Shown here piece by piece: positions 17,480-34,068 of a stretch of DNA of 41,277 nt; the stretch's first letter is position 1, and every line of letters begins with the position of its first letter. The notes beneath the pieces are model-generated. The model did no database searches. It was not told where the DNA came from and was given only the letters and a program-made list of their open reading frames with translations. The stretch comes from Eubacteriales Family XIII. Incertae Sedis bacterium (lineage in GTDB: Bacteria; Bacillota; Clostridia; Peptostreptococcales; Anaerovoracaceae): the NCBI GenBank assembly GCA_031276515.1, contig JAISMX010000040.1:1-41277 (forward strand), in the 5' to 3' direction. Position numbers and translations under genes: made by a program.

Positions 17480-19321
17480 TTAATTGAAAAATCTGTTTGA
17501 AATTACTTCCTGTCCCAATTCTCGTTCCGTCAACACGGAGTCGCGAGCCATATTCATCGCGCGTTCCACGATGTTCTCCAATTCTCGAATATTGCCCGGC
17601 CAATCGTATTCCATGATGTAGTTCATCGCCGCGGGCGTAAAACCCCGGACGCGCAGATCCATTTTCCGGTTGTGTTCTTGGATGAAATGTTCCACCAAGA
17701 CGGGGATGTCCTCTTTCCTCTGACGCAGAGCCGGCATATGAAAAGAGAGCACGTTGAGACGATAGTAAAGGTCTTTGCGAAAACTGCGATTTTCGATGTG
17801 TTCCGCGAGGTTTACATTGGTGGCCGCGATGATTCTCACGTCCACGTGTTTCGGCGCTTTGCCTCCTATGCGCAGAATTTCTCGCGTTTGAATAACGCGC
17901 AGCAAAAGAACCTGAATATCCAAAGGAATATCCCCGATCTCATCGAGGAAAATCGTACCGCCGTCGGCGAGTTCAAATTTTCCGGGACAACCGTCTTTGT
18001 TGGCGCCCGTGAAGGCTCCCGGCTCGTAACCGAACAGCTCGCTTTCCACGAGACTGCGCGGGAGCGAGCCGCAGTTGATCGCGACGAAAGGGAATTTCGC
18101 GCGCGGGCTCGCGTTGTGAATGGACTGGGCGAATATGTCCTTGCCCGTCCCGCTTTCACCGAGTATGAGAACGTTGCTTTCGCTGTGCGCCGCCAATTCG
18201 CCGAGCCGCTTAATGTCTTGTATGAGGTCGGAGACGCCCAGGATCCTGTCGAAATCGCAGTGTGCCACAAAACCGCCGACTTTTGACGCGATTTTTGTGA
18301 AGGTCTTGCGTTCCTCCATCATCAAAATAATTGAAATTCGATTGCCGTGTTCATCGTTCAGGACAGAGGCGGATATGGAAAGGTTGAGGGCGATTCCCAT
18401 ATTGTTCGTCACATTGAGCTCGCGGTGCGTTACGTTTTGCGTCAGCGACATAATGTCAAGCGTCGCCGTCTCCATTCTCAAAAGATTGCGTATGTTGACG
18501 CCCGTTATCGAAGATTCTTTTATCGAAGATTCCCTGAGTTTGAGCATGTCGTTCGCGCTCTTGTTGGCCTGTGTGATCACGCCGTTGTTGTCGATCATGA
18601 GCAATCCCTGCGACAGGGATTGTATCGTGGTGGAGAGTTTTTTGTTTATGAGGGATATTTCATTGTTGATTTCCAGCATCCGGAATTCTTTTTCAATCCC
18701 ATCGGCGGCGACGCAAACCATTGCGAAGGTATGCGGCGTCATGGCCGCGGACGGGCCGATTACGGCGATCACTCCGAGCAAATCGCCAAGTTTGCTCTTG
18801 ATCGGCGCGGCGTAACACACGTATCTGTGATGCGGTTGAATGAAATGTTCCTCGCCTATGATCTGAATGGGTTTTCCCGTCGCTATGCAAGTGCCGATTC
18901 CGCAGGTGCCGGATGTGCGTTCGCTTCGATTGCAGCCGATTGTGAGAGAGCTTTTCTCCGCGTGCTGTCCGATTTCCCCAAAGAGGCCCACCAAATCGAC
19001 GACATTGCCTTCTCTGTCGGACAAAGCGATCAGAAAATCCGAACCTTCGAGCATTGCGAACAGCTTCGTAAAGTAGGGATGGGTGAGAGAAATCAGCGTT
19101 TTGTTTTCTTTGAGTGCCGCTTCGAGGCGTTCCGGCGAAAGCAATTGGTCGCTTACCTCAAAGGGAGATACGCCAAATTCCTTGCTGCGTTTCCATGAAT
19201 GAAAAATGAAGGGCTTTATGCCCGGAGGCGTCTTTTTGGGAAAAGGCGCGTCGCCGGCGACATAAGTCTCCCATAAACGCGCAATCCCGCAATCTTTATC
19301 GCGATACGTTTTTTTATCCAT
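17480..19321 (-). CDS. Sigma-54-dependent transcriptional activator (AcoR-like GAF-PAS-AAA+), apparently without C-terminal Fis HTH
   Basis: N-terminal GAF-like RSERTSGTCGIGTCIATGKPIQIIGEEHF; Walker A GESGTGKD; GAFTGA loop; GGTIFLDEIGDIPLDIQVLLLRV; ends YDWPGNIRELENIVERAMNMARDSVLTERELGQEVISNRFFN*. Start at 19321 (MDKKTYRDKDC) after GGGGATTGAGG. Confidence 0.93.
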   Translation of the reverse strand: MDKKTYRDKDCGIARLWETYVAGDAPFPKKTPPGIKPFIFHSWKRSKEFGVSPFEVSDQLLSPERLEAALKENKTLISLTHPYFTKLFAMLEGSDFLIALSDREGNVVDLVGLFGEIGQHAEKSSLTIGCNRSERTSGTCGIGTCIATGKPIQIIGEEHFIQPHHRYVCYAAPIKSKLGDLLGVIAVIGPSAAMTPHTFAMVCVAADGIEKEFRMLEINNEISLINKKLSTTIQSLSQGLLMIDNNGVITQANKSANDMLKLRESSIKESSITGVNIRNLLRMETATLDIMSLTQNVTHRELNVTNNMGIALNLSISASVLNDEHGNRISIILMMEERKTFTKIASKVGGFVAHCDFDRILGVSDLIQDIKRLGELAAHSESNVLILGESGTGKDIFAQSIHNASPRAKFPFVAINCGSLPRSLVESELFGYEPGAFTGANKDGCPGKFELADGGTIFLDEIGDIPLDIQVLLLRVIQTREILRIGGKAPKHVDVRIIAATNVNLAEHIENRSFRKDLYYRLNVLSFHMPALRQRKEDIPVLVEHFIQEHNRKMDLRVRGFTPAAMNYIMEYDWPGNIRELENIVERAMNMARDSVLTERELGQEVISNRFFN

Positions 19322-19343
19322 TGTCCTCAATCCCCTTTTTATC

Positions 19344-19371
19344 ATTATAGCACATATGTGCCAAGTGGCAA
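19344..19371 (-). promoter_or_regulatory. Sigma-70-type promoter of the activator gene
   Basis: On minus strand TTGCCA, 16 bp spacer, TATAAT (plus coordinates -35 19366-19371, -10 19344-19349); overlaps the inverted-repeat cluster. Confidence 0.6.
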
Positions 19372-19396
19372 TATCTTTGGCACGTATTGGCACATA
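19355..19396. promoter_or_regulatory. Inverted-repeat operator/enhancer cluster
   Basis: Perfect 10-bp arms TATGTGCCAA (19355-19364) and TTGGCACATA (19387-19396), with additional half-sites GTGGCAA (19365-19371) and TTGGCAC (19377-19383). Confidence 0.6.
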
Positions 19397-19523
19397 AATA
19401 TATTTGGCGGCGGTATTTTTGTGAATAATTCGACAATTGAGAAACGCAAAACGCGACAATCGCTTGCCGGCAAACAATAATTTTTATTGAAAAACAAATG
19501 CTTCGCAGAGATTCAGTCAATAT

Positions 19524-21084: not shown

Positions 21085-21120
21085 TGGACGATGCGATCGC
21101 CAAGAAAGATGAGGTTTGAA

Positions 21121-22437
21121 ATGAAGAGAAGCAAATTGTTGATCTCGATTGTGATTCTGTGTACGTTCGCTCTCGCGTTTGCGGGTTGCGGAGGCGGGAA
21201 CGAAAGCGCAAGCAACGAGGAAGCCGCGACCGAAACCGCCGCGGAAGGCGAGGGCGAAGGCGAAGGCGCCGGCACTGCGGACGCGATCAAAATCGGCGTC
21301 ATATTGCCGTTCTCGGGTCTGACCGCGACGGTTGGCGCGGACGTTCGCAATGGCCTCGAATTGGCCATCAATGAAATCAACGAAGCCGGTGGCGTCAGTT
21401 CCATGGGCGGCGCCAAGTTCGAATTGATCTTCGCCGACAGCAAGGGCGATCCGAAGACCGGCATGTCGGAGGCGGAGCGCCTGATTCTGAAAGAGGAAGT
21501 CGCGGTGTTGATGGGCGCGTACCACAGTTCGGTCACTTTTACCGCGTCTGAGATCGCGGAAAAATATCAGTGTCCCTTCCTGACATTGGTGGCGGTCGCC
21601 GACGACATCACCAATCGCGGCTTCAAATACACCTTCCGGATCAACGCCAGATCGAGCGACTGCACGAAGCTCCCGCCGGAGTTCGTCACGAGACTCGGCG
21701 AGACGACGGGCGTCAAGGCGAAAACGGTGGCCATCATCTACGAGGATTCCGAGTGGGGGCAGACGAACGCGGCGCAGTGGCGCGAAGGTTTGGCGGCCCA
21801 AAATCTTGAAATCGTGCTCGACGAGAGCTATCCCGCCAGCACGACCGATATGGTCCCCCTCGTAACGAAGGTCAAAAACGTGAAACCGGATCTTCTGTTC
21901 TCGGCCATAATGGTTTCGGACGGAATTCTTCTGGCGCAGACCTTGGATCAAATGGATGTGAATCTGATGGGTTGGTTCGGCGGCGGCAGCGGCGAACTGG
22001 ACGTCTCATACGTTCCCGCGGTGGGAGATATCGCCGACGGCATGTTCTCGCCCACAGGCGCTTGCGACGATATGCTCGACACGAAGGTGGGTTTGAAGGA
22101 ATTGAACGAAGCGTTCATCGCCAAATACGGCGGCGACAGCATCAGCAACGGCGCCGCGGTCGCCTATTGCAACGGCTATGTCCTCTTGGACGTGTTCGAG
22201 CGGGCGGGTACGACCGATCACGAAGCGATTCGGCAGGCGTTTGTGGATACGGACATCCAGGGCGGCAAAGCCGTCAGCGGCATGACCATGGATCGAATCG
22301 TCTTCGGCCCGGACGGTCACAACAGCGAGAGCTTTATCGTCATGGTGCAGTTGAGCGGCGGCAAATGGAAGGTCGCATATCCGGAAAATCTTGTAAAGCC
22401 CGATTTTACGGTCAAGTGGCCTCTGGGTGAAATATAG
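21121..22437 (+). CDS. Branched-chain amino acid-type ABC transporter substrate-binding lipoprotein
   Basis: Lipobox LAFAGC; IKIGVILPFSGLTATVGADVRNGLELAINEINEAGG; SKGDPKTGMSEAERLI. Confidence 0.92.
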   Translation: MKRSKLLISIVILCTFALAFAGCGGGNESASNEEAATETAAEGEGEGEGAGTADAIKIGVILPFSGLTATVGADVRNGLELAINEINEAGGVSSMGGAKFELIFADSKGDPKTGMSEAERLILKEEVAVLMGAYHSSVTFTASEIAEKYQCPFLTLVAVADDITNRGFKYTFRINARSSDCTKLPPEFVTRLGETTGVKAKTVAIIYEDSEWGQTNAAQWREGLAAQNLEIVLDESYPASTTDMVPLVTKVKNVKPDLLFSAIMVSDGILLAQTLDQMDVNLMGWFGGGSGELDVSYVPAVGDIADGMFSPTGACDDMLDTKVGLKELNEAFIAKYGGDSISNGAAVAYCNGYVLLDVFERAGTTDHEAIRQAFVDTDIQGGKAVSGMTMDRIVFGPDGHNSESFIVMVQLSGGKWKVAYPENLVKPDFTVKWPLGEI

Positions 22438-22466
22438 GGTACGAAGCACAAATCGGCTCTTCATGT

Positions 22467-22492
22467 CCGCAGGCGGGGCGTCTCGCCTGCGG
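22467..22492 (+). other. Strong intercistronic hairpin between substrate-binding protein and permease genes
   Basis: CCGCAGGCG (22467-22475) / CGCCTGCGG (22484-22492), 8-nt loop, no long U tract. Confidence 0.6.
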
Positions 22493-22563
22493 CTTGATTA
22501 CGGCTTTTCGAACGAGTGGTTTTCCCGCAATAAAGACAAAAATGGAAGTAAGGAGAAGCGACT

Positions 22564-23433
22564 ATGCTTACGCAGGGCTTGGTAAACGGAATTTTGATGG
22601 GAGGGCTTTACGGAATCGCGGCGCTTGGCTTGAGTTTGATTTACGGCGTGCTCAACGTCGTGAACTTTGCCCACGGCGGTTTGTTGATGACGGGCATGTT
22701 CTTGGGATACTGGTTGTGGGTGTTCACGCAATTCAATATATATTTCATATTGATTCCGGTTTTTCTGGGCTTGTTCCTTCTTGGAATGCTGATAGAGAGT
22801 TCCATCATAAATCCGGTTTTGGCGAGAGAAAAGGAACAGCACGTCAACATCATCTTCATCACATCCGGCGTGATGATGGTTTTGGAGAATCTGGCGCTTT
22901 TGCTGTTTGGCCCCGAATATCGCGTCGCGGACACGTCCGTGAGCGGATTGACGCTGAAAATGGGCGAAATCGTCGTGAGCACGCCCAGGGTGCTCGGTTT
23001 CATCCTCGCGGCCATTCTTGCGGCAGCCGTCCATTCCATGCTGAGAATGACGGATTTGGGCAGGGCGATACGAGCTACGGCGGACGACGAGGACGCGGCG
23101 GCGGTCGCCGGCATCAACACGCGCAAGGTGTTTAATTTCGCGTTCGCCCTCGGATGCGCCATCACGGGCGTCGCGGGCGCTCTTTTGATACCGATTTTCT
23201 ATGTGCAGCCCACCGTTGGCGGCGTATTCAACGTCAAAGCCTTTATCATCGTGGTTCTGGGCGGAATGGGAAGTCTCAACGGCGCCATGATCGGGGGCCT
23301 CATCGTCGGTCTGATCGAATCGCTTGTGACGCTCTATTATCGGAACACCATGGCGGACATGGTCGTTTTCTTGATTTTCATCGTATTCTTACTGTTCCGT
23401 CCATCCGGATTGTTGGGCAAAAAGGAGGCTTGA
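22564..23433 (+). CDS. livH: Branched-chain amino acid-type ABC transporter permease (LivH family)
   Basis: LVNGILMGGLYGIAALGLSLIYGVLNVVNFAHGGLLMTG; FRPSGLLGKKEA at C-terminus. Confidence 0.92.
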   Translation: MLTQGLVNGILMGGLYGIAALGLSLIYGVLNVVNFAHGGLLMTGMFLGYWLWVFTQFNIYFILIPVFLGLFLLGMLIESSIINPVLAREKEQHVNIIFITSGVMMVLENLALLLFGPEYRVADTSVSGLTLKMGEIVVSTPRVLGFILAAILAAAVHSMLRMTDLGRAIRATADDEDAAAVAGINTRKVFNFAFALGCAITGVAGALLIPIFYVQPTVGGVFNVKAFIIVVLGGMGSLNGAMIGGLIVGLIESLVTLYYRNTMADMVVFLIFIVFLLFRPSGLLGKKEA

Positions 23434-23434
23434 G

Positions 23435-24448
23435 ATGAGAGTACCGGGTTTGGGGAAGCAGTATTTAAAATGGATTCTTGTCGCTCTCATCGTCATCCTG
23501 CTTCCGCTTGTCATACGCGATCCATTTTCCATCCATATAGTGATCATGGTGCTGTTCATGGCGTATCTCGGCATGTGCTGGAATCTGATGGGCGGTTTGG
23601 CGGGACAGTTTTCGCTGGGACACAGCGCGTTTTTCGGTCTCGGCGCGTACACGTCCACGATCTTGTTCTACAATTTGGGAATCAGCCCTCTCGTCGGAAT
23701 CTTTGCGGGCGGAATTGTCGCGGCCGTCGCCAGCCTTTTTGTCGGATATTCGTCTCTCCGCTTAAAGAACCATTATTTCGCTCTTGCGACCCTGGCGTTT
23801 TCGCAGGTTTTGCGCGTTTTTTTCGTCGACACGCGAGAGCTTTTCGGTTTGGAGGTGCGCGGCGCGCAGGGACTGCTGCTGCCCTTGGTCGGGAATTCGC
23901 CCTTGATGCTGCAATTCGATTCAAAGACGGGCTACTATTACTTCATCGTCATACTGGTCTGCGTCATTTTGGTCGTCAGCAAAGCGGTGATGGACTCCCG
24001 TCTCGGATATTACTTGAAAGCCACGCGCGACCAAGAGCAGGCGGCCGAGTGCGTCGGGGTGCGCACCACGCGCGCCAAGGTGAGCGTTGGGGCGATCAGC
24101 GCCTTTTTTACGGCTCTCGGCGGAACGTTTTACGCGCAGTTTCTGTATTACATCGACCCGGGCGTATTCGGCCTTTCCTGGGGAATAGAGATTTTATCCA
24201 TCGTCATCATCGGCGGCATCGGCTCTTTCTGGGGACCCCTGCTGGGCGCGATCATCCTCGTTCCGCTCGGCGAAGTCACGCGGATCTATCTGAGCGGCAA
24301 TCTGGCGGGTCTGCATTTGGTGATTTACGGTCTGGTCATCATATTGGTGATGCTTTTGATCCCCAAAGGGATTGTCAGTCTGCTCGATTGGAAGAAATTC
24401 ATAAAGAAAGGGGGTGGCGGCGATGGAACAGTGCTTGCGCGTGAATAA
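23435..24448 (+). CDS. livM: Branched-chain amino acid-type ABC transporter permease (LivM family)
   Basis: WNLMGGLAGQFSLGHSAFFGLGAYTS; ATRDQEQAAECVGVRTTRAKV; GGIGSFWGPLLGA. Confidence 0.92.
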   Translation: MRVPGLGKQYLKWILVALIVILLPLVIRDPFSIHIVIMVLFMAYLGMCWNLMGGLAGQFSLGHSAFFGLGAYTSTILFYNLGISPLVGIFAGGIVAAVASLFVGYSSLRLKNHYFALATLAFSQVLRVFFVDTRELFGLEVRGAQGLLLPLVGNSPLMLQFDSKTGYYYFIVILVCVILVVSKAVMDSRLGYYLKATRDQEQAAECVGVRTTRAKVSVGAISAFFTALGGTFYAQFLYYIDPGVFGLSWGIEILSIVIIGGIGSFWGPLLGAIILVPLGEVTRIYLSGNLAGLHLVIYGLVIILVMLLIPKGIVSLLDWKKFIKKGGGGDGTVLARE

Positions 24449-25154
24449 TATCACAAAGAAATTCGGCGGAATGCTTGCCCTGAAAGACGTGAGCTTTCAA
24501 ACCGAAACGGGAGAGATACTCGGCTTGATCGGGCCGAACGGCGCGGGAAAGACGACATTGTTCAACATCATCTCCGGCGTGCTGCGGCAGACCGAGGGAG
24601 AGATCCTTTTTCACGGGAAATCGGTGTCGCATATGGCGCCGCACAAAATCTGCAAGTTGGGAATCGCGCGCACATTTCAGATCGTGAAACCCTTTTACAG
24701 CATGACGCTGCGAGACAATGTCGCCGTCGGCGTTATGGCGGTCGGCCACAGCAAAAACAAGGCCTTGGAAAAAGCGGATGAGGTTCTCTCCTTTCTGGGA
24801 CTGGATCAAAAATCCGACAAATTCCCCGGAGAGTTGACGCTGGCGGAGAAAAAACGTCTCGAATTGTCGCGCGCGCTCGCGACCGATCCCAAACTGCTCA
24901 TTCTCGACGAGGTGATGGCGGGCCTAAACACCAGAGAAATGCTGGATTTTACCGAGATCATCAAGACGATCCGGCAGAGAGACATCACGATCATCATGGT
25001 CGAGCATGTCATGCAGGCAATTCTGACGCTTTGTCACAGGGTCGTCGTTCTCAATTTCGGAGAGATATTGGCCATCGGCACGCCGGAGGAGGTCATCAAC
25101 GATCCGAAGGTGATAGAAGCTTATTTGGGGGACGGATACAATGCTCAAAATTGA
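24423..25154 (+). CDS. livG: Branched-chain amino acid-type ABC transporter ATP-binding protein (LivG family)
   Basis: LRVNNITKKFGGMLALKDVSF; GPNGAGKTTLFN; LTLAEKKRLELSRALATDPKLLILDEVMAGL; overlaps livM by 26 bp. Confidence 0.93.
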   Translation: MEQCLRVNNITKKFGGMLALKDVSFQTETGEILGLIGPNGAGKTTLFNIISGVLRQTEGEILFHGKSVSHMAPHKICKLGIARTFQIVKPFYSMTLRDNVAVGVMAVGHSKNKALEKADEVLSFLGLDQKSDKFPGELTLAEKKRLELSRALATDPKLLILDEVMAGLNTREMLDFTEIIKTIRQRDITIIMVEHVMQAILTLCHRVVVLNFGEILAIGTPEEVINDPKVIEAYLGDGYNAQN

Positions 25155-25875
25155 GAATATGCATTCCGGTTACAAAGATGTTCCCGTTTTGCGAGAAGTG
25201 TCCCTGTTTGCGGGAGAAAACGAGATCATCGGCGTCGTCGGGTCCAACGGGGCGGGCAAAACGACGCTCTTGAAGACGATCATGGGCCTGATTCATCCGA
25301 CGGCCGGCAAGATCGAATTTCGCGGCGAGGACATCGCTTCCCTGGGGACGCATCAGATTTCGGACCTCGGCTTGGGATTGGTGTTCGAGGGTCGCAGGTT
25401 GTTTACCGGCATGACGATCGTCGAGAATCTCATGGTGGGCGGCGGCACGAAGCGAACCAAGCCGTATCGGCGGGACAAGATGGCCGAGGTTTTTGACCTG
25501 TTTCCGATCTTGAAGGAGAGAAGGAAGCAATTGGCCGGCTCTTTGAGCGGAGGCGAGCAGCAGATGCTCGCGATCGCCAGGAGTTTGATGGGTTGTCCCA
25601 AACTGCTCATGATAGACGAGGTGAGCCTCGGTCTCGCGCCGCGCGTTGTGGAATCGATCTATGAAATGCTGAATGTGATCAAAAAGGCGGATATGACGCT
25701 GATCGTCGTCGAGCAGAACATCAATCTGTGTCTCAATTTCGCCGACCGCGCCTACGTTATGGAAAACGGAAGAATCGTGGCGGAAGGCGGCGGAAAGGAA
25801 CTGTTGCAAGATCGCGGAATCAGAGACAAATATATGGGAATAAAGCCGCTGTCCGATGCGGAACGCGGCGCGTAA
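25141..25875 (+). CDS. livF: Branched-chain amino acid-type ABC transporter ATP-binding protein (LivF family)
   Basis: GSNGAGKTTLLKTIMGLI; GLVFEGRRLFTGMTIVENLMVGG; SLSGGEQQMLAIARSLM; overlaps livG by 14 bp. Confidence 0.93.
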   Translation: MLKIENMHSGYKDVPVLREVSLFAGENEIIGVVGSNGAGKTTLLKTIMGLIHPTAGKIEFRGEDIASLGTHQISDLGLGLVFEGRRLFTGMTIVENLMVGGGTKRTKPYRRDKMAEVFDLFPILKERRKQLAGSLSGGEQQMLAIARSLMGCPKLLMIDEVSLGLAPRVVESIYEMLNVIKKADMTLIVVEQNINLCLNFADRAYVMENGRIVAEGGGKELLQDRGIRDKYMGIKPLSDAERGA

Positions 25876-25910: not shown

Positions 25911-26684
25911 ATGACGAACTTCAAAGATCGCACAGTGCTCGTGACCGGCGCTTCAAAGGGAATAGGCTACGTCATAGCCAAATCGTTTGCGCAGCGCGGC
26001 GCCAAGGTCGCGCTGAACGCGACAAATCAAGAGCGCTTGCGGGAGGCCTGTGAATCCCTGCGCAAGGAGACGGGCGGCGAAATTTTCGCGGCGCCGGGAG
26101 CGGTGCAGATCGCGGGCGATGCGAAGAAGATCATAGAGGACACGATCGCGCATTTCGGACAAATAGACATTCTCGTCAACAATGCGGGCGTATATCCGAC
26201 CTGCGAGGTCCGTCGCATCACCGAAGAAGAATGGGATCGCGTAATGGCGATCAACGCGAAGGGAAGCTTCTTGATGTGCCGGGACGTCGTCAACCATATG
26301 ATCGACAAAGGCATCCGGGGCCGCATCATCAATATATCTTCCGGAAATTACAAGTCGGCCATGATTGGATTCGCCCATTACTGCGCGTCGAAGGCCGCCG
26401 TGGTGATGCTGACCAAGACGCTCGCTTTGGAGGTCGCCCATCTGGGCATCACCGTGAACAGCGTGTCGCCCGGGATCGTCGATGTGGGCGCGAGCGAAGA
26501 AATCATGCCGCAGGCCTACAAGGACGCGTTTTGCAAGCAGGTTCCGAACGGCCGGCTCGGATTGCCCGAGGACATCGCGGCGGCCACGATTTTCTTGGCG
26601 TCCGACGCGGCGAACTACATCAACGGAGACGTCATACATGTGGACGGCGCGCTTGGCGCCGGAAGATACACGGTAAAGAAATAA
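25911..26684 (+). CDS. Short-chain dehydrogenase/reductase (SDR)
   Basis: VLVTGASKGIGYVIAKSFAQRGAKVAL; NNAGVYP; YCASKAAVVMLTKTLALEVAHLGITVNSVSPGIV; start trimmed from ORF 25728. Confidence 0.92.
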   Translation: MTNFKDRTVLVTGASKGIGYVIAKSFAQRGAKVALNATNQERLREACESLRKETGGEIFAAPGAVQIAGDAKKIIEDTIAHFGQIDILVNNAGVYPTCEVRRITEEEWDRVMAINAKGSFLMCRDVVNHMIDKGIRGRIINISSGNYKSAMIGFAHYCASKAAVVMLTKTLALEVAHLGITVNSVSPGIVDVGASEEIMPQAYKDAFCKQVPNGRLGLPEDIAAATIFLASDAANYINGDVIHVDGALGAGRYTVKK

Positions 26685-26724: not shown

Positions 26725-27711
26725 ATGAACAACGTTTTTGCGAAAACACAAAAGGCGCGGCTGCTAAATTTTTACCGAGTCATGTATCGGATGCGCAGAT
26801 TTGAGGAAGAGGTCTTCGAGTTTTATAAAAAGGGGATGATGCCCGGTCTTGCGCATTTGTATTTGGGCGAAGAAGCCATTGCCGCCGGCGTCTGCGCCGC
26901 GCTGAACGAATCGGATTATATCGGAAGCTCGCACAGGGGCCATGGGCATCTCGTCGCGCGCGGCGCGCGGCTCGACAAGATGATGGCGGAAATCCTCGGA
27001 AAGAAGGACGGCTACTGCAAAGGCAAAGGCGGTTCCATGCACATCATGGCGATGGACAAGGGCATATTGGGCGCGAACGGGATTGTCGGCGGGGAAATTC
27101 CCATTGCGACGGGCGCCGCTTACGCCGCGAAATACAGAGGAACAAAGCAGGTGGCCGTTTCGTTTTTTGGAGATGCCGCGAGCAATGAGGGTACCTTTCA
27201 CGAGAGCGTCAACATGGCGGCGGCTTGGGATCTTCCCGTCATTTACGTAATTGAGAACAATTTGTACGGCATTTCGGTCGACATTCGCGATGTGACCAAC
27301 ACCGAAAACCTTGCGGACAGGGCAAAAGCCTACGGGATTCCGGGCGTTGTGGTGGACGGCATGGATGTGATCGCGGTTTTCGAGGCGAGCGCGAAAGCCG
27401 TGAAACGCGCGCGCGACGGCAAGGGTCCCACGATCATCGAATGCAAGAGTTATCGTTGGCAGGGACACCACGTGGGCGACCCCGGCGAATACAGATCGAG
27501 GAAGGACAAGAACGAGAAGGCGCTGTGGATGGAGCGCTGCCCGGTGAAGAACTATCGCGCGCGGCTTTTGTCCCGCGGCGATTCGATAGACGAAAAGGAT
27601 TTGCTCGACATTGAAGCGAGCGTCGAAGAAGAAATAAAGGACGCGGTGCGCTTTGCGTCGGACAGTCCGTATCCCGACGCGTCGGAAGCGTTTGAGGACC
27701 TCTTCGCGTAG
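26725..27711 (+). CDS. acoA: Acetoin/2-oxoacid dehydrogenase E1 component alpha subunit (TPP-dependent)
   Basis: YRMRRFEEEVFEFYKKGMMPGLAHLYLGEEAIAAGVCAAL; GYCKGKGGSMHIM; FFGDAASNEGTFHESVNMAAAWDLPVIYVIENNLYGISVD. Confidence 0.9.
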   Translation: MNNVFAKTQKARLLNFYRVMYRMRRFEEEVFEFYKKGMMPGLAHLYLGEEAIAAGVCAALNESDYIGSSHRGHGHLVARGARLDKMMAEILGKKDGYCKGKGGSMHIMAMDKGILGANGIVGGEIPIATGAAYAAKYRGTKQVAVSFFGDAASNEGTFHESVNMAAAWDLPVIYVIENNLYGISVDIRDVTNTENLADRAKAYGIPGVVVDGMDVIAVFEASAKAVKRARDGKGPTIIECKSYRWQGHHVGDPGEYRSRKDKNEKALWMERCPVKNYRARLLSRGDSIDEKDLLDIEASVEEEIKDAVRFASDSPYPDASEAFEDLFA

Positions 27712-27818: not shown

Positions 27819-28799
27819 ATGGCAAAGGAGATTCTTTACAGGGATGCGATCCGCGAGGCGCTCGATGAGGAGATGGAGCGGGACGAGAACGTGCTGCTGC
27901 TCGGAGAAGATGTGGCGTACATCGGCGGAAATTTCAAGACCTCCGTCGGACTTTACGACAAGTACGGGGATCTGCGCGTAAAAGACACGCCCATATCCGA
28001 AGCCGGGTTTCTCGGCATGGCCGTCGGCATGGCGTTGACGGGTCTCCGCCCCGTGGTCGAGCTGATGTTTTCGGATTTTCTGCTGGTGGCGGGCGATCAA
28101 GCGTTCAACCAGATGGCGAAGATCCGCTACATGTCGGGGGGACAGGCGACCGTGCCGATGGTCGTGCGAATGCCCATAGGCGCGGGCCGATCTTCGGCGG
28201 CGCAGCATTCGCAGAGCATGCAGGCCATGGCCGCGCATTTCCCGGGCGCGAAGGTGGTCTTGCCCTCCACGGCGCAGGAGGCGAAGGGTCTCCTGAAAAC
28301 GGCCGTGCGAGACGACAATCCCGTGCTGTTTTTTGAACACAAGATGGAGTACTCGAATAAATTCGTCATAGACGACGAAGTCGAGCCCATTCCGTTCGGG
28401 AAGGCCAACATCGTCATGGAAGGCCGCGACGTGAGCATAGCGGCGACATCCTCTCAGGTCATGAAGTCCGTTCGCGCCGCGGAAAAATTGCGGTCCGAAG
28501 GCATATCGTGCGAAGTGATCGATTTGAGGACCTTGGTTCCCTTCGACAGAGAAAGCGTAATCGAATCGGTGAAAAAGACGGGAAGGCTGCTGGTGGTGGA
28601 CGAGGCTTACGAGTTTTGCGGAGTGGGCGCCGAGATTGGCATGAATGTGATGAAAGACGTGTTCTACTATCTCGACGCGCCCATAGGGCGGATTTCCACG
28701 CCCAACGTCCCGCTTCCCTTCAGTCCCGCTCTCGAATTCCCGATCCTGCCCTCCGAAGAGAAGATCCTGCGGGCTGTGCTTTCCTTGATGGGCAAATAG
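27819..28799 (+). CDS. acoB: Acetoin/2-oxoacid dehydrogenase E1 component beta subunit
   Basis: MAKEILYRDAIREALDEEMERDENVLLLGEDVAYIGGNFKTSVGLYDKYG...DTPISEAGFLGMAVGMALTGLRPVVELMFSDF. Confidence 0.93.
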   Translation: MAKEILYRDAIREALDEEMERDENVLLLGEDVAYIGGNFKTSVGLYDKYGDLRVKDTPISEAGFLGMAVGMALTGLRPVVELMFSDFLLVAGDQAFNQMAKIRYMSGGQATVPMVVRMPIGAGRSSAAQHSQSMQAMAAHFPGAKVVLPSTAQEAKGLLKTAVRDDNPVLFFEHKMEYSNKFVIDDEVEPIPFGKANIVMEGRDVSIAATSSQVMKSVRAAEKLRSEGISCEVIDLRTLVPFDRESVIESVKKTGRLLVVDEAYEFCGVGAEIGMNVMKDVFYYLDAPIGRISTPNVPLPFSPALEFPILPSEEKILRAVLSLMGK

Positions 28800-28815: not shown

Positions 28816-29877
28816 ATGGAAAACGGCAGATTGAAGATTACGCCGCGCGCTCGGAGCGCCGCGCTTCGGCGGGGGATTGCGGCGAATGAAATTCCCGCTT
28901 CCGGCACGGGTTTTGCGGGAGGCGTATGCGAAAAGGACATATTGCGATTGCCCGCCGGCGAAGGCCCGAAAGAAGAAGCGCCGAACGGCGATGTTTTCGC
29001 GCTTCGCTGTACGCCGCTCGCGCGGCGGGTCGCCGCGTCGAAAGGCGTTGACATCTCGAAAATCGCGGGAAGCGGCGCGCGCGGCAAGGTGATGAAAGCG
29101 GACGTCGAGTCCGCCGTTTCCGCCCGGCAATCCGCGAAAGAAGCCGCGGAGCTTCCCGCCGCGCGGACTTCGGACGGCAAGGCGATTCGGGAAACCAAGC
29201 CCTACGCGGGCATACGCAAGATAATCGGAACGCGTCTCGCGTCAAGCAAATTCACCGCGCCGCACCTGTATTTCACGCAGAAGGTTGACATGAAAGCCCT
29301 GCTCGCGCTCAGAAAACAGGTGAACGCGATTCTGACGAACAAGGCTTCCGTCACGGATTTCATCGTGCGCGCGGTCGCGCGCTGTTTGATCAAATATCCC
29401 GACATGAACGCGTCGCTCGCGGGGGACGTCATTGAGCTGTACGAAAGCGTAAATGTGGGCGTTGCCGTAGCGGCGCCCGCGGGTTTGATCGTTCCCGTGC
29501 TGCGCGATTGCGAAAAGAAATCGCTCGAGCGGATCGCGGAGGAATCGGCCGCTTTGGTGGCGAAGGCGCGAGACAATAAATTGAAACCCGACGAGTACAG
29601 CGGAGGCACCTTCACCGTTTCCAACCTCGGCATGTTCGGCATCGAAAACTTCACCGCCATAATCAATCCGCCGGAATCGGCCATACTCGCCGTGAGCGCC
29701 ACGAAGGATGAGGTCGTCGCCGCGGACGACGGCAGCGGAGGCAAAACGGTCGACATCCGGCCAATGATGCATATCACGCTGACCGTGGACCACAGGATCA
29801 TCGACGGCTTATTGGCGGCGCGCTTCGTGACGGACGTAAAGACGATTCTCGAAAACCCGCTCGAAACGCTTATATAA
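28816..29877 (+). CDS. acoC: Dihydrolipoamide acyltransferase E2 lacking a lipoyl domain, with two N-terminal peripheral subunit-binding domains
   Basis: Two E3-binding-like segments (ITPRARSAALRRGIAANEIPASGTGFAGGVCEKDIL; CTPLARRVAASKGVDISKIAGSGARGKVMKADVE); catalytic DHRIIDG; no lipoyl DK motif. Confidence 0.88.
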   Translation: MENGRLKITPRARSAALRRGIAANEIPASGTGFAGGVCEKDILRLPAGEGPKEEAPNGDVFALRCTPLARRVAASKGVDISKIAGSGARGKVMKADVESAVSARQSAKEAAELPAARTSDGKAIRETKPYAGIRKIIGTRLASSKFTAPHLYFTQKVDMKALLALRKQVNAILTNKASVTDFIVRAVARCLIKYPDMNASLAGDVIELYESVNVGVAVAAPAGLIVPVLRDCEKKSLERIAEESAALVAKARDNKLKPDEYSGGTFTVSNLGMFGIENFTAIINPPESAILAVSATKDEVVAADDGSGGKTVDIRPMMHITLTVDHRIIDGLLAARFVTDVKTILENPLETLI

Positions 29878-29925
29878 TTCTATTGCCCGGCGCCGGCAAA
29901 GCAAGGAAAAGGGAGGATGTTTCAA

Positions 29926-31683
29926 ATGGTTGAAGCCATTATAATGCCCAAATTGGGTTTCAATATGAGCGAAGGCAAGCTCGTGTGCTGGTATAAAAAA
30001 GAAGGCGATGCCATCGGCAAAGGAGAGCCGTTTTTTTCCATTGAAACGGACAAAACGACGATCGACGTGGAGGCGACGCGGGACGGCATCGTCCGCAGTC
30101 TTCTTTTTCGCGAGAACGAAACGGTCCCCGTAATGCTTCCGATAGCGATCGTTTCCGACGCGGACGAGAATATTGAGGCCGAATTGAAAGCCGCCAAGGA
30201 GCGTTTGGCGGGCATCTCCTCGCCCGGACAAACGCCTTCGCTTTCCGCGTCCGGCGCGCCTTCGGTTCCCGCGCGATCGGATCAACCCGCGCCTTCCGGC
30301 GGCGCGCGCCGCAGGGAGTATGACGTCATTGTCATCGGAGGGGGTCCCGGGGGCTACGTGGCGGCAATCAGATCCGCTCAACTCGGGAAACGCGTCGCTT
30401 TGGTCGAAAAAGACAAAATGGGAGGCGTCTGTTTGAACCGAGGCTGCATTCCCACAAAGACCTTTCTGCGCGGCGTCGAAGCGCTGAGAGAAGTGAGAGA
30501 TTGTGAGCGATACGGCGTTTCCTGCGCGGACGCGCATCTGGCCGGCATCGATATGGAAAAATTGCAAAAACGGAAAAACGAAATCGTCGCCCAATTGGTC
30601 GGGGGCGTGGAAAGCCTCTTGAAAAAGAACGGCGTGGAGAAGTTCGACGGAACCGGCGCGATAGTTGACGCGAATTCCGTGGAAGTAAACGGAAAAACAT
30701 ACACATCGGAACACATCATAATCGCCACGGGTTCCCTTGCAAAGACACTTCCGGTTCCGACGGACGACGACATGCGTCCGCTCACGTCGGACGACCTGCT
30801 TTCAATGACGGCCTTGCCGCAGGACATGCTGATCGTCGGCGGCGGTGTGGTTGGCGTGGAATTGGCGTATTTTCTCGTTTCCGCGGGCGTCAAGGTGAGA
30901 ATCGTGGAGTTTTTGGATCGCATATTGCCGATGATCGATGAGGAGATCGCCGAATTGGCCTCGAAAAAACTCAAAAACTTGGGCGTGATCGTGGACACGG
31001 GAGCGCGCGTGACGAGGATTGCCGAAGGCGCCGTCTTCTTTGAGAGCGATGGACGCGAACACAGGGCGGAGACGCGGAATGTGCTGATGGCCGTCGGCAG
31101 GGAGGCGAATCTCGGCGGGATCGATTGCGAGAAGCTCGGAATAGAGCTTGATCGCGGCGCCATCGCCACGGACGCGTCCCTCAGAACATCCGTTCCGAAC
31201 ATTTTCGCGATTGGCGACGTCAACGGAAAGAACATGCTTGCGCACACGGCTTCGATGGAGGGGATTGTTGCGGCCGAAACCATTGCGGGCCATGCATGCG
31301 CCATGAATTACGACAGGATTCCAAGCGTCGTTTACTTGCGTCCGGAGTTGGCGAGCGTTGGCTTGACCGAGGAGCGGGCGCGCGAAAAATACGCGTCCGT
31401 GAAGGTCGGGCGTTTTCCTTTGGCCGCGAACGGCAAGGCGAAGGTGGCGGGCGAGAGCGAGGGTTTGGCAAAGATCATAATCGAGGAAGAATACGGAGAA
31501 ATCGTGGGCGCGCATCTCTACTGCGCCCACGCCACGGATATGATCGCGGAAATCGTAACCGCAATGAACCTTGAAGCGACGGCGGATGAGATTGCGATGA
31601 CGGTGCATCCGCATCCGACGATTTCCGAAGTCATTCAGGAGGCGGCGCACGCCATCCGCGGGAAAGCGATTCATTTCGCCTGA
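29926..31683 (+). CDS. acoL: Dihydrolipoamide dehydrogenase E3 with N-terminal lipoyl domain
   Basis: Lipoyl domain MPKLGFNMSEGKLVCWYKKEGDAIGKGEPFFSIETDKTTIDVEA; FAD GGGPGGYVAAIRSAQLG; redox disulfide GGVCLNRGCIPTK; C-terminal HPHPTISEVIQEA. Alternative start 29917. Confidence 0.93.
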   Translation: MVEAIIMPKLGFNMSEGKLVCWYKKEGDAIGKGEPFFSIETDKTTIDVEATRDGIVRSLLFRENETVPVMLPIAIVSDADENIEAELKAAKERLAGISSPGQTPSLSASGAPSVPARSDQPAPSGGARRREYDVIVIGGGPGGYVAAIRSAQLGKRVALVEKDKMGGVCLNRGCIPTKTFLRGVEALREVRDCERYGVSCADAHLAGIDMEKLQKRKNEIVAQLVGGVESLLKKNGVEKFDGTGAIVDANSVEVNGKTYTSEHIIIATGSLAKTLPVPTDDDMRPLTSDDLLSMTALPQDMLIVGGGVVGVELAYFLVSAGVKVRIVEFLDRILPMIDEEIAELASKKLKNLGVIVDTGARVTRIAEGAVFFESDGREHRAETRNVLMAVGREANLGGIDCEKLGIELDRGAIATDASLRTSVPNIFAIGDVNGKNMLAHTASMEGIVAAETIAGHACAMNYDRIPSVVYLRPELASVGLTEERAREKYASVKVGRFPLAANGKAKVAGESEGLAKIIIEEEYGEIVGAHLYCAHATDMIAEIVTAMNLEATADEIAMTVHPHPTISEVIQEAAHAIRGKAIHFA

Positions 31684-31741: not shown

Positions 31742-34011
31742 CACGGAGTCTGTTTTGTGATGTGGAGCGTGAAGACGGCCTCGTCGCCGCCGTTTGCGGG
31801 ACCCTTGAGGTTTAAGGCGATCGTGGTCGTCGAGCCTTCTCCCTCAACCAAGTTTATGGTCCGCTTCTCGCCGCTGCGTATGGCGGCGCTCTTTCCGTCC
31901 TGCGTGAGCGTGGCCGTGAATTCCGCGCCGAAGCCGAAGGACACGTTCACGCTCTTGTAGTTGGCGGGTACGGTGCATGCGTAGGTCTTGCCGTCGGCCC
32001 CTCCGGCCGTCGGATTTTCGGGCGTCGCTCCCGACACGTACACGCTGTCCGGCAGAGGTGCGTTTTCGCGCACGGTGATCGTGTATCGCTGCTTGCTCTT
32101 GCCCGACTCGGAGGTTTCGACGACGATGGTGTGCGGAATTCCCGGCGTCGCGGGCAGTTCTATGCGCTCCGAGTTCGCGCCGCTCGCCACGATGCGCCCG
32201 TTCACGATGATGTCCGTGGACGCGTATGCCGTGGGCCGCACGACGATGTGGGAGCTGCCGTTGCTCACGGCGACGCTCGGGTAATCGCGCGCGTTCGCGT
32301 CGAAAGCGAAGCCGCCGGTGACGCGGCCGCCATCCACGGCGATGGAGAGACCCGTCAATCCTCCGGATTGCGTCGTCTTCTCCACGATTCCCGTGTAGGA
32401 GACGGAGGAGAGCGCCCCGGACGGACCTTCCAGACAGGCGTAGACGCGGTATTTGGTGTTCATCGATATCGCGGCGCTCGTCGCCGTGTACGTGTTCTCC
32501 ACGTTCGGAACGCTGCCCTTGTCCACGACCTTCTGGTTTTCGTTGGCGGTTCCCGCTTTGACCTTTTCGGGCGTGGGCGGCAGCGCGCCGCCGCTCTCGG
32601 CCACGGCGATCCAGTGGAAGGTCCCCTTCGCGTTGACGCTGACCGTTATTTCGAGCGCATTGCCGGCGTTGATGCCGGCGTTCAAACTGCGGATGGTCGG
32701 CGTGCCGACGCCGGCGGTCGTGAAGGATCGCGCTTCGACCCTGGAAAATTCATTCGCGTTCTTGGAAACATAACCATAAACATCATAGGATGTTCCAACT
32801 TTGAGTTCCGTTATGTCGATGTTCAGGCTCCTGTTCCTTTCGATGGGAACACTGCCCGATTTCAATGCCTTGTCTCCGCCCCTGTCGTTGCCGGCGGCGA
32901 TGTTCGTCTGCGACGGCCTGCCCGCGCTGTTCTCAACGAGCACCCAGTAGAAGGTTCCTTTTTCGGTGGAGCTGACGGTCAGGAGGGCGGTTTTTTCGGT
33001 GATCGTCCCGACGCTGAAATTGCTGATCCAGTTTTCGCCGATGTCGGCTTCGTCCTCGGTGTTGAAATGCAGACTGCGCACGTTGGAGAGTTTGCCGTCG
33101 CCGCCCTTCACGGTCGCGTACATCGTGTAAGGCTTCGCGGCCGTGAGCCCGTCCATGGTGACGGACGCCCGCTCGTACGCCTTGACCTTGACGCTGCCCT
33201 TCTTGAAGGCGGCCGCGCCGGCGGAGTCCTTGCCCTGCGATATCTGCTGCGCCGTCGGTTCGGAACGCGGTTTTTCGAGCAGAACCCAGTACAGGGTGCC
33301 GCCGGTTCGCGATGTGGCGTTTACGACCGCGCGCACGTTGTCGTAATCCGAAATGGCGAATTCCGTGATGGCCCTGGAATCTTGATCTATGCCCAACACC
33401 TTGTTGATGACTTTGACGGTTTCCGCCCGCGTCAGATTGCGATTGGGATAAAAATTGCCGTCGGGATAGCCGGTCAGATAGCCCTTGGTGTAGGCGGAAT
33501 TGACGGCCTCCGTCGCCCAGGCGCCTATCTCTTTCGCGTCCAAAAGCCCCTTTGGCGTCTTCTTCGTGCTTTCGCCCGGCGATATCCGAAAGAGCACCGT
33601 CGCGACCTCCTGACGCGTGATGGGGCTGTCCGGGGCGAACCACGTGCCGCCGTCGTAGCCCGCTATGTAGCCGGCCGCGGCGGCCTTTCTCACCTCATCG
33701 TAATACCATTCGTGCGGAGGCACGTCGACGAAGGCGATGTTGCCGAAAGCCGTATAACCCATCGCCGCGTTGATTACCTTGACGAACTCGGAGCGCTTGA
33801 TGGCCGCGTCGGGCAGGAATCGGCCGTCGGCGTAGCCGTTGATGTAGCCTCGGTCGACGGCGCTGCGGATTTCCTCGTCGGCCCAGTGTCCCACCGTGTC
33901 CACGAAATTGGACGCGCCATGAGCGGACGTTCCGGGCCAAAGCGCGGCGGCCGGCGCGGACGCGAGCAGAGAGAGGGCGGCGATTGACAAGATTCTCGAA
34001 ACTGTTTTCAT
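31741..34011 (-). CDS. S-layer homology (SLH) domain surface protein with tandem Fn3-like repeats and C-terminal cadherin-like beta-sandwich
   Basis: Signal peptide MKTVSRILSIAALSLLASAPAAALW; three SLH domains (FVDTVGHWADEEIRSAVDRGYINGYADGRFLPDAAIKRSEF, etc.); three repeats sharing GT(F/L)(Y/H)W(V/I). Confidence 0.9.
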   Translation of the reverse strand: MKTVSRILSIAALSLLASAPAAALWPGTSAHGASNFVDTVGHWADEEIRSAVDRGYINGYADGRFLPDAAIKRSEFVKVINAAMGYTAFGNIAFVDVPPHEWYYDEVRKAAAAGYIAGYDGGTWFAPDSPITRQEVATVLFRISPGESTKKTPKGLLDAKEIGAWATEAVNSAYTKGYLTGYPDGNFYPNRNLTRAETVKVINKVLGIDQDSRAITEFAISDYDNVRAVVNATSRTGGTLYWVLLEKPRSEPTAQQISQGKDSAGAAAFKKGSVKVKAYERASVTMDGLTAAKPYTMYATVKGGDGKLSNVRSLHFNTEDEADIGENWISNFSVGTITEKTALLTVSSTEKGTFYWVLVENSAGRPSQTNIAAGNDRGGDKALKSGSVPIERNRSLNIDITELKVGTSYDVYGYVSKNANEFSRVEARSFTTAGVGTPTIRSLNAGINAGNALEITVSVNAKGTFHWIAVAESGGALPPTPEKVKAGTANENQKVVDKGSVPNVENTYTATSAAISMNTKYRVYACLEGPSGALSSVSYTGIVEKTTQSGGLTGLSIAVDGGRVTGGFAFDANARDYPSVAVSNGSSHIVVRPTAYASTDIIVNGRIVASGANSERIELPATPGIPHTIVVETSESGKSKQRYTITVRENAPLPDSVYVSGATPENPTAGGADGKTYACTVPANYKSVNVSFGFGAEFTATLTQDGKSAAIRSGEKRTINLVEGEGSTTTIALNLKGPANGGDEAVFTLHITKQTP

Positions 34012-34068
34012 AAATCGATCTCCGTACCAAAGCAAGCGCGTCGCGGCGACATGAGAGACGCGCTCGCG

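Follow-up and report, generated by a model that had tools for sequence, protein, structure and literature searches.

The textbook E2 acyltransferase of a 2-oxoacid dehydrogenase complex carries one or more lipoyl domains. The E3 proteins of Alcaligenes and Neisseria and the E1 protein of Zymomonas have been named as exceptions to this rule, and in the PDH complex of M. hyopneumoniae blotting and mass spectrometry have revealed that the E3 subunit (PdhD) is lipoylated at K42 (PMC7873978). The E3 proteins of Neisseria (P64k) and of Alcaligenes eutrophus possess an N-terminal lipoyl domain, just as the E3 described here does, and a full-length neisserial E3 with such a domain has been structurally solved (PDB entry 5u25). 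The E2 proteins of Neisseria and A. eutrophus retain their own lipoyl domains, unlike the E2 of the operon that we analyzed.

This E2 has the same length and layout as the proteins covered by the NCBIfam model NF011416 (PRK14843, dihydrolipoamide acetyltransferase, 347 positions), on which it aligns end to end (residues 1–353 on positions 1–347); however, with 234 bits it falls far short of the equivalog cut-off of 429 bits and hence represents a different subfamily with the same layout. The start of the model (about positions 6–90) matches the region with tandem peripheral subunit-binding domains (PSBDs) in other E2 proteins. NF011416 is built on the streptococcal E2 that lacks a lipoyl domain and is paired with a lipoyl-bearing E3; Hakansson and Smith are said to have worked on the pneumococcal E3. 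The actinobacterial OdhA/KGD proteins, in which an acyltransferase domain without a lipoyl domain of its own is fused to E1, resemble fusions found among the relatives of our operon, but they differ from them as 2-oxoglutarate enzymes with a homodimeric E1, an N-terminal CAT domain, and lipoyl groups provided in trans by E2p (PMC10415282). E3-borne lipoyl domains are already established, and the operon described below is a further member of this known arrangement.

A Four-Gene Operon for a 2-Oxoacid Dehydrogenase Complex

The stretch of DNA that we analyzed (the window) comprises the 41,277 nucleotides of a contig from an Eubacteriales Family XIII Incertae Sedis bacterium. Four consecutive genes on its plus strand form one operon and encode E1alpha, E1beta, E2, and E3; all four are intact and their motifs are conserved. 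E1alpha (26725..27711), the alpha subunit of a ThDP-dependent 2-oxoacid/acetoin dehydrogenase, matches PF00676 with 302 bits and TIGR03182 with 370.6 bits, the latter below the cut-off of 393.85. E1beta (27819..28799) contains PF02779 and PF02780 and exceeds the cut-off of NF006667 (393 versus 321 bits). E2 (28816..29877) is a protein of 353 amino acids, and E3 (29917..31683), a dihydrolipoyl dehydrogenase of 588 amino acids, matches TIGR01350 above its cut-off (538 bits). Judged from the sequence, the ATG at 29926 suits both the ribosome-binding site and the start positions of related proteins better than the E3 start at 29917.

Upstream of the operon lie a branched-chain-type ABC transporter (21091–25872) and a short-chain dehydrogenase (25911–26681); an AcoR-like regulator with GAF and sigma-54 interaction domains (17483–19477, minus strand) is divergent from these transporter and dehydrogenase genes. 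Downstream, a gene convergent with the operon (31744–34035, minus strand) encodes a surface protein that combines S-layer homology domains with a cadherin-like domain. A scan for sigma-54 promoter patterns gave nothing above chance. E1alpha does not reach the cut-off of any curated PDH model listed, and no family assignment settles the substrate; the predicted functions of the upstream genes fit an AcoR-controlled acetoin system without proving which substrate is used.

The E2 Protein Possesses Two PSBDs and Lacks a Lipoyl Domain

The sequence-only reading had described E2 as two tandem E3BD-like segments followed directly by a CAT domain with DHRIIDG, without a lipoyl domain, and Pfam, profiles built from relatives, and an AlphaFold2 model all bear out this anatomy. 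Pfam matches in the E2 open reading frame are limited to 2-oxoacid_dh and E3_binding, the latter in two separate stretches, and no match to Biotin_lipoyl (PF00364) was found at E ≤ 1. The CAT domain (29191..29871, residues 126–352; PF00198, 270 bits) carries the DHxxxDG motif as DHRIIDG. Hence, E2 shows the CAT domain and the at least one PSBD (here two) that characterize a 2-oxoacid dehydrogenase E2, but it lacks the at least one lipoyl domain of the textbook protein. As the earlier reading had also asserted, there is no space for such a domain in front of the gene: its reading frame is closed nine codons 5' of the ATG, and E1beta ends at 28799. Therefore, no lipoyl domain has been overlooked there, and together with the Pfam scan the closed frame rules out a hidden or divergent lipoyl domain either within or 5' of E2.

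The second PSBD (PSBD2; 29008..29109, residues 65–98) is of the canonical type with the signature GxGxxGK(I/V)MKxD and scores 49.5 bits with Pfam when scored alone. PSBD1 (28834..28944, residues 7–43), a diverged type of the E3_binding fold with the signature GTGxxGG(I/V)xEKD, scores 21.7 bits (E = 2.5e-4), slightly below the gathering score of 23.7. With a profile that represents the first PSBD in 18 relatives and leaves out the window, PSBD1 reaches 59.2 bits, compared to 15.7 bits with the relatives' PSBD2 profile; conversely, PSBD2 scores 63.0 bits with the PSBD2 profile and 23.8 bits with the PSBD1 profile. Two same-genus genomes yielded a match, and in both of them, as in other genomes of the family, the equivalent of PSBD1 exceeds the Pfam cut-off. 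In the AlphaFold2 model, both segments (pLDDT mostly 80–95) show the same succession of elements: a helix, then short helical turns, a strand of one residue, and a second helix. A Foldseek search with the N-terminal model of E2 returned only PSBDs as credible matches, whose E-values (about 0.015 or worse) are poor because a PSBD is tiny; which of the two was aligned is not given. PSBD1 is a genuine PSBD, and the relatives' profile, the same-genus and family genomes, and the AlphaFold2 model rule out a chance match. Neither a divergent lipoyl domain nor a single E3_binding match was the outcome of these analyses.

The Lipoyl Domain Is Located on E3

The sequence-only reading had looked for a lipoyl domain solely in and 5' of E2, and the next gene carries one. 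The N-terminus of E3 contains a Biotin_lipoyl domain (29935..30147, residues 8–77; PF00364, 48.8–49.9 bits) with the expected lipoyl-lysine motif ETDKT, which is conserved in relatives and whose predicted lipoyl-lysine is encoded at 30052–30054. As in M. hyopneumoniae PdhD, the domain is fused to the E3 N-terminus; lipoylation of the window's E3 is predicted. The M. hyopneumoniae enzyme differs in being a mycoplasma PDH. Since E3 carries this domain, the complex is predicted to retain its swinging arm, located on E3.

In the 1.93-Mb assembly, which is 77% complete, there is one other PF00364 match; it contains the biotin motif EAMKM, and we therefore rejected it as a second lipoyl-type protein. 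E3 thus provides the only recognizable lipoyl arm of the 2-oxoacid dehydrogenase type in this assembly, which also encodes a single E2. Because the assembly is incomplete, a separate lipoyl protein may be encoded elsewhere in the genome. LplA is present as a 333-codon frame on contig 97, and LipA is found on contig 52, where it is cut by the contig end.

Lipoyl-Less E2 Proteins Are Common among Related Operons

We typed 65 distinct related operons with profiles built for this analysis. E2 lacks a lipoyl domain in 17 of them, each time with a lipoyl domain on the adjacent E3 (17/17); another 23 operons bear lipoyl domains on both E2 and E3, 25 on E2 only, and not one of the 65 lacks the domain altogether. 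A lipoyl-bearing E3 accompanies 17 of 17 lipoyl-less E2 proteins but 23 of 48 lipoyl-bearing ones (Fisher p = 7e-5, a value that ignores kinship). The domain is likewise on E3 in seven more operons with a lipoyl-less E2, among them a copy from the same genus and two fusions from within the family. An independent-pairs test on the CAT tree yielded no contrary pair, with too few pairs for significance on its own. The lipoyl state of E2 changed at least six times on the CAT tree and seven times on a tree built from four proteins for another set. A three-protein tree places the window in a lipoyl-less clade of seven rows (support 100/99), i.e., with five Clostridiales Family XIII metagenome bins and one Clostridiales bin. 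Judging from these operons, an E3-borne arm combined with a lipoyl-less E2 is common among the relatives of this bacterium. No relatives were found among viral contigs.

Two PSBDs are present on E2 in 59 of the 65 operons, and relatives whose E2 bears a lipoyl domain likewise have two. Tandem PSBDs are hence the norm in this E2 family, whether or not a lipoyl domain is present, and do not replace it. The anatomy of E2 given in the sequence-only reading stands, but the oddity that this reading had implied is not supported: the arm is on E3, and a pair of PSBDs is not peculiar.

In the 23 operons with both domains (e.g., L138, L139, and L035), the E2 and E3 lipoyl domains are on average 84% identical within an operon, compared to 56% between operons, a difference that suggests repeated events of copying or gene conversion inside the operon. 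Two operons (L166 and L167) encode an E3 with two tandem lipoyl domains next to a lipoyl-less E2.

E1beta–E2 Fusion Proteins among the Relatives

Four relatives of the window (L067, L073, L189, and L191) encode E1beta–PSBD–CAT fusion proteins of about 630–650 amino acids. L067 (3975–5888) and L073 (897–2792) were both tested with Pfam, which confirmed the fusion; L193 and L190 are duplicate fetches of L067 and L073, respectively. Each fusion has a single PSBD, which by profile is of type 2 (PSBD2 versus PSBD1 profile: 56.8 versus 15.0, 55.8 versus 24.2, 55.5 versus 14.9, and 40.5 versus 20.0 bits for L067, L073, L189, and L191, respectively), and the lipoyl domain is on E3 only. L073 is sister to L071, an unfused operon with two PSBDs (99/98); L067 and L189 are placed near the window, and L191 lies far off at the end of a long branch. 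Four fusion events are needed on the tree; at least three is a safe count, with L067 and L189 possibly sharing one. Forcing L067, L073, and L189 into one clade was rejected (AU p = 2e-47). Our search of the open-access literature, which has partial coverage and from which subscription journals are mostly absent, found no paper on an E1beta–E2 fusion of this form or on tandem PSBDs, so that it says little about novelty.

Proposed Working of the Complex

We consider it highly probable that the operon encodes a working 2-oxoacid/acetoin dehydrogenase complex of the acoABCL type with its swinging lipoyl arm on E3. The domain layout, the operon, the co-occurrence, and the repeated change of state are observed in the sequences; lipoylation and catalysis are inferred. 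LplA and/or LipA would lipoylate the lysine of the ETDKT motif in the N-terminal domain of E3, E1 would acylate this E3-borne arm, CoA would receive the acyl group through the CAT domain of E2, and the arm would be reoxidized by the flavin core of E3. The M. hyopneumoniae complex, with its lipoylated E3, works in this manner. E2 would serve as the core scaffold and bind the peripheral enzymes through its two PSBDs, so that docking of E3 would bring in the arm as well. The ancestor probably combined a lipoyl–PSBD–PSBD–CAT E2 with a lipoyl-bearing E3, a state in which the arm on E2 would have been redundant, and this arm would subsequently have been lost.

Actinobacterial OdhA, which uses the lipoyl groups of E2p in trans (PMC10415282), offers a precedent for a complex that receives its arm from another protein such as GcvH or a second E2, leaving the lipoyl domain of E3 unused in the cycle. 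For our operon we regard this as very improbable, since we see a single E2 in the genome and no lipoyl motif in any PF00364 domain outside E3, and since every operon with a lipoyl-less E2 has kept the E3 lipoyl domain, whose conservation would be surprising for an idle domain. Even harder to credit is a decaying complex, or a truncated or misassembled E2 that has lost its lipoyl domain without compensation. The score of PSBD1 slightly under the Pfam cut-off is what such decay might produce, but PSBD1 reaches 59 bits with the profile of its own type, and the four genes are all intact and retain conserved motifs. Moreover, the same-genus genome L187 has an identical E2 layout and other relatives from separate assemblies share it; these relatives rule out an assembly error and already largely refute decay.

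The assignment of the two PSBDs is a more even matter. PSBDs tether E1 and E3, and the single PSBD of the E. coli complex binds either E1p or E3 (PMC8421416); the two domains of our E2 could accordingly be interchangeable, with the pair merely raising occupancy. We hold this to be possible but rather doubtful, as two clearly distinct PSBD types exist in the clade and type 2 alone survives in the E1beta–E2 fusions, both of which suggest a division of labor. PSBD1 is gone exactly when E1beta is covalently attached, and given that PSBDs tether E1 and E3, this suggests PSBD1 as the socket for E1; we lean slightly toward PSBD1 docking E1 and PSBD2 docking E3. This assignment of PSBD1 stays inferential because the deletion that joined the genes could have removed PSBD1 mechanically, its loss then being a by-product. 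In the wider proposal, each PSBD of the tandem pair is a socket dedicated to one enzyme, with E1 docking on PSBD1 and the lipoyl-bearing E3 on PSBD2, and fusion of E1beta to E2 has repeatedly made PSBD1 dispensable; we give this proposal an even chance of being correct.

If the sockets are indeed dedicated, the stoichiometry of these complexes would be fixed and E3 would bring in the swinging arm; this clade would then possess a two-socket E2, in contrast to Gram-positive PDH with its one PSBD, for which the partners compete. The E1beta–E2 fusions represent a natural test of which PSBD pairs with which enzyme, a question that complexes with a single PSBD cannot answer. More broadly, the swinging arm appears to move freely between subunits, and annotating a lipoyl-less E2 as defective would be wrong if the E3 encoded with it is not inspected.
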